Source: Acidobacteriota bacterium
Lineage (GTDB): Bacteria; Acidobacteriota; Terriglobia; Acidiferrales; UBA7541
Length of the DNA stretch: 37,634 nucleotides
Assembly: GCA_003224145.1 (NCBI GenBank)
Contig: QHYN01000213.1
Coordinates: 1 to 37,634, forward strand
Reading direction: 5' to 3'
Shown: positions 20,783-28,596 of the stretch, piece by piece
Layout: every line of letters starts with the position of its first letter
How positions within the stretch are numbered: the first letter of the stretch is position 1
Notes under the pieces: model-generated
What the model was told of the DNA's origin: nothing
Database searches by the model: none
What the model saw: the letters and a program-made list of their open reading frames with translations, nothing else
Program-made: the position numbers and the translations under genes

Positions 20783-20803
20783 GGGGGCGCAGCATGCTGC
20801 CCC
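20783..20803. repeat. GC-rich palindromic element, copy A (argF-argG spacer)
   Basis: A perfect 12-base palindrome GCAGCATGCTGC (20789-20800) is flanked by G-rich and C-rich arms, with CAGTTTGCC to the right. It resembles copies at 22071-22096 and 26061-26088, including the centre GCATGC and a similar right flank. It sits 44 bases after the argF stop and 34 before the argG start, and could fold into a hairpin in the arg transcript. Confidence 0.6.
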
Positions 20804-20836
20804 AGTTTGCCTATATCTCATCGCAAGAGAGGAATT

Positions 20837-22070: not shown

Positions 22071-22096
22071 TAGGGGCACAGCATGCTGCGGCCCAA
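22071..22096. repeat. GC-rich palindromic element, copy B (argG-argH spacer)
   Basis: TAGGGGCACAGCATGCTGC followed by GGCCCAA, ten bases after the argG stop. The core CAGCATGCTG (22079-22088) is a perfect palindrome. The left arm TAGGGGC is shared with copies C and D, and the right flank CCAACTTGGC resembles that of copies A and C. Confidence 0.6.
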
Positions 22097-25538: not shown

Positions 25539-27053
25539 ATGACCGCTCGTTTGCCATCTCTCGTCATCGTCGGACGCCCCAACGTGGGCAAGTCCACGCT
25601 CTTCAACCGTTTGACCGGCACGCGCCGCTCCATCGTCACCAACGAGCCGGGCATCACCCGCGATCGCATCTATGGCCAAGCCGAGTGGCGTGGTCGCACG
25701 CTCGAAGTTGTCGACACGGGCGGCATCCTCCCGGACGACAACGCCGTCATCCCCCAGGAAATCCTTCGCCAAGCCCACGTCGCCATCAAGAAAGCCGCAC
25801 TGCTCGTTCTCGTGGTGGACAGCCAGGCTGGCGTCACGCCTCTCGACCAAGAGCTGGCCCGCCTCCTTCGCACCACCGGAAAACCGTTCGTCATCGCTGT
25901 CAACAAAGTCGACTCGCCGTCGCAGGAAGTCAATGCCGCCCCGTTTCATTCCATTGGCGTTCCCGTCTTTCCCATTACCGCCGAGCACGGCACCGGCGTC
26001 GACGATCTTCTCGACTTCGCTCTCGCACAGTCCTTTCCATCGACTCAATCCCCCTCCGTTGTAGGGGCGCCGCATGCCGCGCCCCAAGTGCCTCCCGTCA
26101 CTCCGGCTGACTCGATTGCAGACGAAAAACAACCCGCTGTCATCGAGGTCGCCATCATCGGCCGCCCCAATGTTGGCAAATCAACACTGCTCAATTGCCT
26201 GGTCGGTGAAGAACGCTCCATCGTTTCGCCCATTCCCGGCACCACCATGGACAACGTAGACACGGAGATTACCCGCGGGGGGCGTAACTACCGCTTCGTG
26301 GACACCGCCGGAATTCGCCGCAAAGGCAAAACCAAGCTCGTCGCGGAAAAACTCAGCGTAGTCATGGCGCGCCGCGGCCTCGAGCGCTGCGACGTCGCTC
26401 TCCTGGTCGTCGATGGCGAGCAAGGCGTGACCCAAGGCGACGCGCAGATCGCCAGCTACGCCGAAGAATCCGGCCGCTCCGTCGTTATCGTCATCAATAA
26501 GTGGGATCTCGCGCTTGCCGCGGCGCGCGAAGCCGCTTCCCGCGATGCCGCCACCGCGAAAGGTAAATCCAAGCGCGCTCCCGGCGAACGCTACAAACCG
26601 GAAAACTTTGATCCGGGGCGACTGATGTTTGATTACGAAAAAATGATCCGCGCAAAATTAAAATTCCTGAGCTACGCGCCGATTGCTTTTCTCTCCGCGA
26701 AGACCGGTGAGCGCGCCGATAAGCTCTTTCCGCTCGTCAATCAAGCCTGGGAAGCACGCCGCCGCCGCATTCCCACGCCAGCGCTCAACAATTGGCTGAA
26801 AGAAGAGGTCGACTTGCAGCGCGGCAGCACGCCGAAAGCCCGCCCCGTGCGCATTTACTACATCACGCAGGCAAAGACTGCGCCGCCCACGTTTCTTCTC
26901 TTCACCAATCAAAAAGCGCCGCTGCACTTCAGCTACGAGCGCTTCCTCGAAAACCAGCTGCGCGCGAAATTCGATTTTACGGCCACGCCCGTCCGCTTCG
27001 TCCAGCGCCTCCGCAAACGCGAAAGACGGGGACACGCCTTTTCCGAGCGGTGA
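25539..27053 (+). CDS. der: Ribosome-assembly GTPase Der (EngA)
   Basis: Essential tandem-GTPase factor in 50S subunit assembly. The 504 residues hold two G domains: GRPNVGKSTLFN, DTGGI and NKVD in domain 1 (about 7-168), and GRPNVGKSTLLN, DTAGI and NKWD in domain 2 (about 210-390), followed by the KH-like C-terminal domain with ITQAKTAPPTFLLF and NQLRAKFDF. It is longer than the usual 440-490, with an extended Pro-rich linker at about 170-208. Bases 26061-26088 in that linker form a copy of the GC-rich palindromic element found in nearby spacers, read in frame as VGAPHAAPQV. A second Lys-rich insertion (AKGKSKRAPGERYKPENFDPGR) lies in domain 2. No Shine-Dalgarno is visible before the ATG. 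Confidence 0.95.
   Translation: MTARLPSLVIVGRPNVGKSTLFNRLTGTRRSIVTNEPGITRDRIYGQAEWRGRTLEVVDTGGILPDDNAVIPQEILRQAHVAIKKAALLVLVVDSQAGVTPLDQELARLLRTTGKPFVIAVNKVDSPSQEVNAAPFHSIGVPVFPITAEHGTGVDDLLDFALAQSFPSTQSPSVVGAPHAAPQVPPVTPADSIADEKQPAVIEVAIIGRPNVGKSTLLNCLVGEERSIVSPIPGTTMDNVDTEITRGGRNYRFVDTAGIRRKGKTKLVAEKLSVVMARRGLERCDVALLVVDGEQGVTQGDAQIASYAEESGRSVVIVINKWDLALAAAREAASRDAATAKGKSKRAPGERYKPENFDPGRLMFDYEKMIRAKLKFLSYAPIAFLSAKTGERADKLFPLVNQAWEARRRRIPTPALNNWLKEEVDLQRGSTPKARPVRIYYITQAKTAPPTFLLFTNQKAPLHFSYERFLENQLRAKFDFTATPVRFVQRLRKRERRGHAFSER
26061..26088. repeat. GC-rich palindromic element, copy C, inside der
   Basis: GTAGGGGCGCCGCATGCC followed by GCGCCCCAAG: the arms GGGGCGC (26064-26070) and GCGCCCC (26079-26085) are perfect complements around a palindromic GCATGC core. 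It shares TAGGGGC, the core and the right flank with copy B. It lies in the coding sequence for the flexible linker between the two GTPase domains and keeps the frame open. Confidence 0.65.
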
Positions 27054-27601: not shown

Positions 27602-27678
27602 CGGGACGTAGCGCAGCCTGGTAGCGCGCACGCTTGGGGTGCGTGAGGTCGCTGGTTCAAATCCAGTCGTCCCGACCA
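27602..27678 (+). tRNA. tRNA-Pro (anticodon GGG)
   Basis: A 77-base cloverleaf. The acceptor stem CGGGACG pairs with CGTCCCG (27668-27674), with discriminator A at 27675 and an encoded CCA at 27676-27678. The anticodon stem CACGC/GCGTG encloses a 7-base loop TTGGGGT, so the anticodon is GGG (27636-27638). The T-loop GGTTCAAATCC is canonical. The D-arm region GTAGCGCAGCCTGGTAGCGC is also normal. Confidence 0.97.
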
Positions 27679-27778: not shown

Positions 27779-28540
27779 ATGCCGCACATTCTTCTAACCA
27801 ACGACGACGGATATCAGGCGCAAGGATTGCGGGCGCTGGCAGGGGCGCTCGAAGATTTCGCGACCGTGAGCATTGTGGCGCCGAGCCGGGAGCAGAGCGG
27901 GACGGCGCAATCGCTGACGCTGCGGCAACCCATCGTGTGCAATCAAATTGCGGAGCGCGAATGGGCGATTGACGGGACGCCGGCGGACTGCGTAATCGTG
28001 GCCCTGCACAAACTTTTACCGGAAAAGCCGGACCTGCTGATTTCCGGAATTAATCACGGCGCGAATCTCGGAGAAAACGCTTATTATTCGGGCACCGTTG
28101 GCGCGGCGCGAGAAGGAGCGCTGCATCACATTCCGTCGGTGGCCGTGTCACTGTGCTCGAAAAAAGAAAAAGTGAAATTTGAAAACTCCGCGCGAGTGGC
28201 GCGCGCAGCGACGAAACTGATTTTGAAAGAAGGATTGCCGGATCAAGTCCTGCTCAACGTGAATGTGCCGGAGCCGTGCAACGGCGAGGTGAAATTCACG
28301 CGCCAATCGCAGAAAATCACACGCAACCAGTTGAGTGAAGGAAAAGATCCGCGCGGCCGCAGTTATTTTTGGCTCTTCGAGCAAAGAATCGACAAAGACG
28401 TTGAGCCGGACACCGATTACGCGGCGATTTTTTCCGGTGCCGTTTCCATCACGCCGCTGCACCTCGATCCCACACATACCGAATCACTCAATCATCTTTC
28501 CCACTGGTCGAGAGCGATTGCCGCCGCCTTTAAGAAGTAG
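27779..28540 (+). CDS. surE: 5'/3'-nucleotidase SurE
   Basis: Metal-dependent phosphatase acting on nucleoside monophosphates in stationary phase and stress. The 253 residues carry the SurE motifs: LLTNDDGYQAQGL with metal-binding Asp9 and Asp10, VAPSREQSGTAQSLTL with the metal-binding Ser40, GTPADCV, LLISGINHGANLGENAYYSGTVGAAREG with the active-site Asn, and LLNVNVPEP. The C-terminal region has DPRGRSYFWL and DTDYAAIFSGAVSITPLHLD, as in other members. It follows tRNA-Pro by 100 bases and is convergent with the Asp-box protein; the spacer between them carries palindromic elements. Confidence 0.94.
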   Translation: MPHILLTNDDGYQAQGLRALAGALEDFATVSIVAPSREQSGTAQSLTLRQPIVCNQIAEREWAIDGTPADCVIVALHKLLPEKPDLLISGINHGANLGENAYYSGTVGAAREGALHHIPSVAVSLCSKKEKVKFENSARVARAATKLILKEGLPDQVLLNVNVPEPCNGEVKFTRQSQKITRNQLSEGKDPRGRSYFWLFEQRIDKDVEPDTDYAAIFSGAVSITPLHLDPTHTESLNHLSHWSRAIAAAFKK

Positions 28541-28545
28541 TCGTT

Positions 28546-28596
28546 GGTAGGGGCGCAGCTTTATCCCGTGCGTACGCGAGGGAATACTGCGCCCTT
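28546..28596. repeat. Composite palindromic element, copy D (surE downstream)
   Basis: GGGCGCAG (28551-28558) pairs with CTGCGCCC (28587-28594). A nested inner palindrome, TCCCGTGCGTACGCGAGGGA, lies between them. The left end GGTAGGGGCGCAG is identical over TAGGGGCGCAG to the element in the other spacers, apparently with extra sequence replacing the GCATGC core. It could terminate or protect the 3' ends of the two convergent transcripts. Confidence 0.5.

Follow-up and report, generated by a model that had tools for sequence, protein, structure and literature searches.

The window, by which we mean the whole stretch of 37,634 nucleotides analysed here, belongs to a MAG of 4.79 Mb (hereafter G000). 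It carries on its forward strand the essential gene der (engA; positions 25539 to 27053), an open reading frame of 504 aa whose product, the ribosome biogenesis GTPase Der, scored 493.5 bits against TIGR03594 (GTPase_EngA; cut-off 306.7). Inside this gene lies a GTAG-tagged copy of a palindrome (26061 to 26085, forward strand) that differs from a 22-mer consensus by two mismatches. Read in the der frame together with the next five bases, these bases, GTAGGGGCGCCGCATGCCGCGCCCC, encode V G A P H A A P Q V, of which VGAPHAAP corresponds to residues 175 to 182. The original prediction of an in-frame palindrome encoding this peptide in der is confirmed by sequence and frame, and the identity of Der by TIGR03594. 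That the element is palindromic, as also claimed, needs qualification for the der copy, which is imperfect: the arms GGGGCGC and GCGCCCC pair, beyond which a C faces a C in place of the A-T pair of the consensus, so that the two changes from consensus leave one arm pair broken.

The palindrome is located in an extended linker between the two GTPase domains (26043 to 26135, forward strand; residues 169 to 199), delimited by alignment and AlphaFold and predicted to be disordered. This link comprises 31 residues in the source Der and 8 in PDB entry 2hjg, a Der of B. subtilis. The AlphaFold model, mediocre as a whole (mean pLDDT 74.7, pTM 0.55), has pLDDT values below 50 at residues 169 to 199 and in other stretches as well.

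A dispersed palindrome with a GTAG tag

Two further copies are found upstream of der on the forward strand, one in the spacer between the ornithine carbamoyltransferase gene and argG (20783 to 20804; 3 mismatches to AGGGGCGCAGCATGCTGCGCCC) and one between argG and argH (22072 to 22093; 2 mismatches to AGGGGCGCAGCATGCTGCGCCC, followed by CAACTTGGCAAC). Both spacer copies, to which the der segment had been likened in arms, core and right flank, are real; the likeness of the right flank is weak. A possible half copy, TAGGGGCGCAGCT (28548 to 28560, forward strand), lies just past an open reading frame ending at 28540 and does not by itself exceed chance.

An ordinary Pro/Ala-rich linker might resemble the intergenic palindromes by chance, especially in a GC-rich genome, and within the window the GCATGC core alone (16 occurrences, 20 expected) and the half pattern TAGGGGCGNCGCA with two mismatches (5 occurrences, 4.9 expected) are indeed at chance level. 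In contrast, the full pattern is far from it: in the genome of G000, GTAGGGGCGNNGCATGCNNCGCCCC has 15 strand matches and the 22-mer AGGGGCGCAGCATGCTGCGCCC, allowing up to three mismatches, has 96, which merge into 51 places when the strands are combined, whereas the reversed control gave 0 matches in either case. Moreover, the relatives G022, G013 and G017 carry the palindrome in the same linker. Chance likeness was rejected on the control matches, and we regard it as extremely unlikely. The expectation that the palindrome is repeated elsewhere in the genome is met by these 51 places.

The comparison set consisted of 36 genomes of the genus, mostly MAGs, the relatives of G000 being denoted here by other G-numbers. 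The palindrome, with at most one mismatch, is present in 31 of them, the source genome included. A sample of 399 genomes from the class contains 55 with a match; by our own count, 46 of them belong to the same family. Named relatives are Acidobacteria MAGs, many labelled gp2, and include JABCZR010000023, JABCZG010000018 and Candidatus Acidiferrum typicum.

From 12 genomes, 155 copies were fetched. G000 contributed 48, as shifting the 22-mer slightly dropped three of its 51 places; the other 107 are part of the copies of eleven further genomes. The 136 copies not called coding yield the consensus TTGTAGGGGCGCAGCATGCTGCGCCCC, followed by a weaker agcTtgccaa; the conserved stretch, GC-rich and nearly self-complementary, consists of ∼27 well conserved bases and ∼10 weaker ones, about 27 to 37 bp in total. 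GTA precedes GGGG, forming a GTAG tag, at one end in 125 of the 155 copies and at both ends in 11, each copy having been turned to its better end and the chance expectation being about 1 in 32. The der copy is also tagged, and the der segment is a slightly eroded copy of this dispersed GTAG-tagged palindrome.

Der linkers across the genus

A readable der linker, taken as the stretch between GVDDLLD and AIIGRPN, was obtained from 31 of the 36 genomes. Its length is 22 to 25 residues at 15 loci, 29 to 35 at 12 and 42 to 50 at four, namely those of G000 (45 residues), G022, G013 and G017. These four linkers contain a recognisable palindrome and the remaining 27 do not; there is no genus-wide conservation of the segment at either the protein or the DNA level. 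The original prediction had called the linker unusually long, which holds for 45 residues against the 22 to 25 of the 15 short linkers, and had proposed looking for relatives whose linker lacks these residues, which is the situation at the 27 loci. As a separate observation, L082, a record titled Betaproteobacteria bacterium, encodes a Der 83% identical to the source Der and is probably a mislabelled MAG.

The tag is on the left in the der copies of G000, G022 and G013 and on the right in that of G017. In the alignment, five relatives lack a 48-nt inserted segment that holds the G017 copy, while the copies of G000, G022 and G013 sit in an insertion of 57 to 66 nt relative to six short-linker relatives, the G000 linker being 66 nt longer. 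Remnants bearing TAGGGG occur in G029 and G014 at the same alignment columns as the G000, G022 and G013 copies. In the linkers of G014, G016 and G029 (L048, L051 and L056), GTAGGGG leads into a palindrome that is imperfect and of another sequence (VGAGLAPP, VGGGLVPP), and these GTAGGGG-headed linkers represent either worn copies or another repeat. A second GTAG family was suspected from VGAGLAPP in G014 and G016; a single pattern for it matched none of 310 loci.

On a tree of the 36 genomes based on four concatenated proteins, the minimum number of presence/absence changes is 4 for the der copy, 3 for a copy in SMC and 5 for one in an HpnC-HpnD fusion (see below), and on a Der tree it is 3 for der; these counts are blind to gain versus loss and use presence states set by hand, the HpnC-HpnD set comprising six genomes, including the worn copies of G024 and G026 and the copy of G027. 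The der insertion seems to be old, since its position and direction are common to G000, G022 and G013, and G029, G014 and G016 may retain worn remnants. Short and long linkers are intermixed within subclades, so losses or recombination are also needed. The simplest history is one old insertion in part of the clade, followed by decay and by loss or recombination, with a second insertion in G017.

Copies in other protein genes

Copies within coding sequence, which had been proposed for counting, were identified with a codon model trained on 23 window genes, der included. It called 19 of the 155 copies in-frame coding, whereas of 1500 positions drawn at random from these loci 902 (60.1%) were coding, indicating that copies are strongly depleted in genes. 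Host proteins scoring over their NCBIfam cut-off are PrmC, TrpS, a DnaE family protein, PurL, SMC, an HpnC-HpnD fusion, a PdxS-PdxT fusion and Der. Beyond der, in-frame copies occur in six named protein genes (SMC, PrmC, PurL, TrpS, DnaE family and HpnC-HpnD) and in two unnamed long open reading frames, both on contig C64. Together with the genome-wide repetition of the element and the variation of the linker among congeners, this strongly supports the proposal that coding sequence has captured a dispersed palindrome. As in der, where the insert adds about eight amino acids to a flexible protein loop, so do the inserts in other core genes.

The SMC copy is clear in G000, G021 and G033 and worn in G030 (29 readable of 30 loci). 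For HpnC-HpnD (30 loci), copies are clear at the DNA level in G000, G010 and G012, the peptide is kept in G027 and worn forms occur elsewhere; in all 30 genus loci read, HpnC and HpnD are fused in one open reading frame (L187:706-2655 and relatives). PurL copies occupy three sites over G022, G010 and G030, and site 1 of G030 is an addition relative to relatives. The DNA polymerase III alpha (DnaE) family host, assigned at the family level and cut short at the edge of the fetched sequence, has two copies in one G030 gene. A copy in a TPR protein (L369), counted among the 19, lies near an uncertain start. In the source MAG, PdxS and PdxT are fused (L167:3225-4748, contig C331) and palindrome-encoded residues replace the conserved PdxS tail; this case was set aside as a coding insertion, since the genes are separate in 29 relatives, some with a palindrome in the spacer, which makes a deletion-fusion or an assembly error likelier.

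Contig C64 of G000 (L158, 18219 bases) combines seven palindrome copies with large open reading frames. Its two host proteins had no match in PHROGs and none over the cut-off in Pfam. By eye, the large open reading frames of this contig look portal- and scaffold-like, and the same proteins hold further VGAGVAPP and VGARHAVP stretches. A copy of G030 with an ambiguous coding call (L344, near 2369) has no counterpart in G024, G022 and G026, where the surrounding bases align poorly. In the close pair G012/G027 no clean empty site was found, each candidate being a larger indel, a partial alignment or a worn copy present in both.

The breadth of host proteins also bears on the idea that a hairpin function keeps the palindrome in genes, be it through mRNA stability, translational pausing between the GTPase domains or a site for a nucleoid protein. 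The der copy can fold as an RNA hairpin (-16.2 kcal/mol), and among 78 different 22-mers 786 of 858 paired cells and 8 double changes exceed the values of all 500 shuffles (at most 783 and 7), although these numbers are small and come from related copies chosen within three mismatches. Against such a function, the z-score of the der fold is only -1.07, 32 of 200 shuffles folding equally well, one arm pair is broken, most der loci lack a recognisable copy and the host proteins are unrelated. We therefore consider it improbable. An Rfam search of the window had a tRNA as its sole match and none at the palindrome; this tRNA gene (27602 to 27675, 64.3 bits) is located downstream of der.

In PrmC, the copy occupies the loop before NPPY in G017, G022, G010 (a fragment) and G030 (assigned by alignment). 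Its tag is at opposite ends in G017 and G030, members of one small clade, and at both ends in G022. The loop has thus probably been hit more than once, unless a double-tagged copy such as that of G022 lost different tags. The PrmC 22-mers show 0 to 1 mismatches to the consensus, but in the 45 nt beside them only 49 to 72% of aligned bases agree, a contrast that is partly selected because the copies were found by their likeness to the consensus. This pattern is what repeated overwriting would give, and gene conversion or template switching, by which palindromes from elsewhere, e.g. the nearby arg spacers, are copied into genes without a transposase, is a less likely alternative to insertion as a mobile element. 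The finding of no cognate transposase at 33 distinct Y1_Tnp loci among the matches listed also agrees with it. On the other hand, the additions relative to relatives (G017 der and PurL site 1 of G030) require a first insertion, and the opposite PrmC tags are not explained by overwriting a single copy, save for the same proviso of a double-tagged ancestor.

The reading phase of the 19 coding copies is biased as well: 16 are in phase 0, three in phase 2 and none in phase 1. Phase 0 (GGG GCG CAG CAT GCT GCG CCC) encodes GAQHAAP or a variant and the three others are in the GAACCA phase; in the third phase, a forward-oriented element brings in a stop codon through its tag. Merging orthologues, a matter of our own judgement, and setting aside L369 and PdxS-PdxT leaves 13 sites, 12 of them in the GAQHAAP phase, with a chance of 0.0017 if two phases are equally open. 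Owing to its self-complementarity over 22 nt, the element encodes the same core peptide per phase in either orientation. Since the core peptide is the same both ways, the forward TAG closes one phase and the survivors are mostly in the GAQHAAP phase, the palindrome might be shaped by protein tolerance and act as a two-way linker module whose recurrent insertion rebuilds the Der, SMC, PrmC, PurL and HpnC-HpnD loops across lineages, a reading that we put forward as a speculation, rather unlikely at present.

Relation to known elements and origin of the copies

Passages of a 2013 paper (PMC3733652) describe GTAG REPs as palindromes of 20 to 40 bp that bear GTAG at one terminus and lie chiefly between genes, some copies falling within open reading frames. 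Genes with such copies include those for repair, replication and tRNA synthetases, flexible linkers or loops were proposed to account for tolerance, and one same-site intragenic case, Xanthomonas recB, is given (PMC3733652). The acidobacterial repeat resembles these elements in being palindromic and multi-copy within G000 and across the genus, in its tag at one end in most copies and in its mostly extragenic location (PMC3733652, the same passages). In view of the copies in open reading frames, the flexible linkers and the recB case reported there, intragenic GTAG REPs are an already known kind. Two differences stand out: no RAYT neighbour was found here, with 0 copies in 33 distinct Y1_Tnp loci among the matches listed, and in several species the acidobacterial repeat occupies one and the same protein loop, with its tag facing either way and one reading phase prevailing. 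Classical REPs, which according to PMC2817692 usually number more than 100 copies per genome, likewise share with it the short palindrome, the many copies and the extragenic bias, and differ in that copies here number tens per genome with no adjacent RAYT found.

The parallel with Rickettsia palindromic elements (RPEs) drawn in the original prediction is apt as a way of working, as these too are in-frame palindromes in conserved protein genes; by family the fit is poorer. Passages of PMC2229807 give RPEs as 105 to 146 bp long and report that Gmk, an enzyme carrying such an insert, is translated and active, whereas the repeat described here measures about 27 to 37 bp and carries a GTAG tag, a distinction drawn from length and tag. 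Two shorter ones, RPE-4 and RPE-6, are placed by the passages of PMC3733652 among the CGTC-tagged REPs. Actual membership in an RPE family is accordingly most improbable; GTAG REPs are the better match in tag and size, in the avoidance of genes and in the copies that persist there.

The mobility suggested for the palindrome would, as a present activity, be conjectural: presence and absence at orthologous sites are seen, but no cognate transposase was found, and none of 33 distinct Y1_Tnp loci among the matches listed (all 4 of G000 and 29 others) has a copy within five mismatches. Copy number does not correlate with the number of Y1_Tnp genes (Spearman 0.28, p 0.10), and G017 (95% complete) and G021 (73%) carry the palindrome without any Y1_Tnp match. 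The passages of PMC3733652 hypothesise mobilisation of GTAG REPs by RAYT transposases, with proximity to a RAYT frequent and not required, and place the acidobacterial tyrosine transposases that they name, Koribacter included, in a TIR-flanked group. Because of the 0 copies in 33 loci, we file the palindrome as REP-type with a putative link to a transposase. Other GTAG- or GTGG-footed hairpins, unrelated in sequence to the palindrome, are present on the contigs of two G000 Y1_Tnp genes (L188 near 453, L191 near 4935) and possibly belong to other REP families.

Taken together, what lies in frame in der is very probably a copy of a miniature element of the REP type, which is scattered over a genus of group-2 soil Acidobacteria and the family around it and survives in genes only at tolerant loops. 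Copies would have been inserted as DNA, probably via a single-strand hairpin intermediate that a REP-associated (HUH/Y1) transposase may have handled in trans. Most coding insertions would then have been purged, and those kept would be frame-preserving ones in tolerant loops. The der-encoded peptide is most likely a tolerated spacer.

The 17-base core was not found in the literature texts searched, and the literature matches listed, consisting of titles, the starts of abstracts and passages of PMC6006769, PMC12306157 and PMC3174227, do not describe the palindrome in Acidobacteria. What is new here is the acidobacterial family, and follow-up is best directed at the repeated use of particular loops and at the skewed reading phase. 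Protein-coding palindromes are hereby extended to group-2 Acidobacteria. Within one genus, a single small repeat can be followed at given loops of essential proteins as present, absent, worn down or probably inserted anew. This series, provided by nature, allows tests of whether palindromes inside genes are no more than tolerated and whether the encoded peptide filters their sequence.
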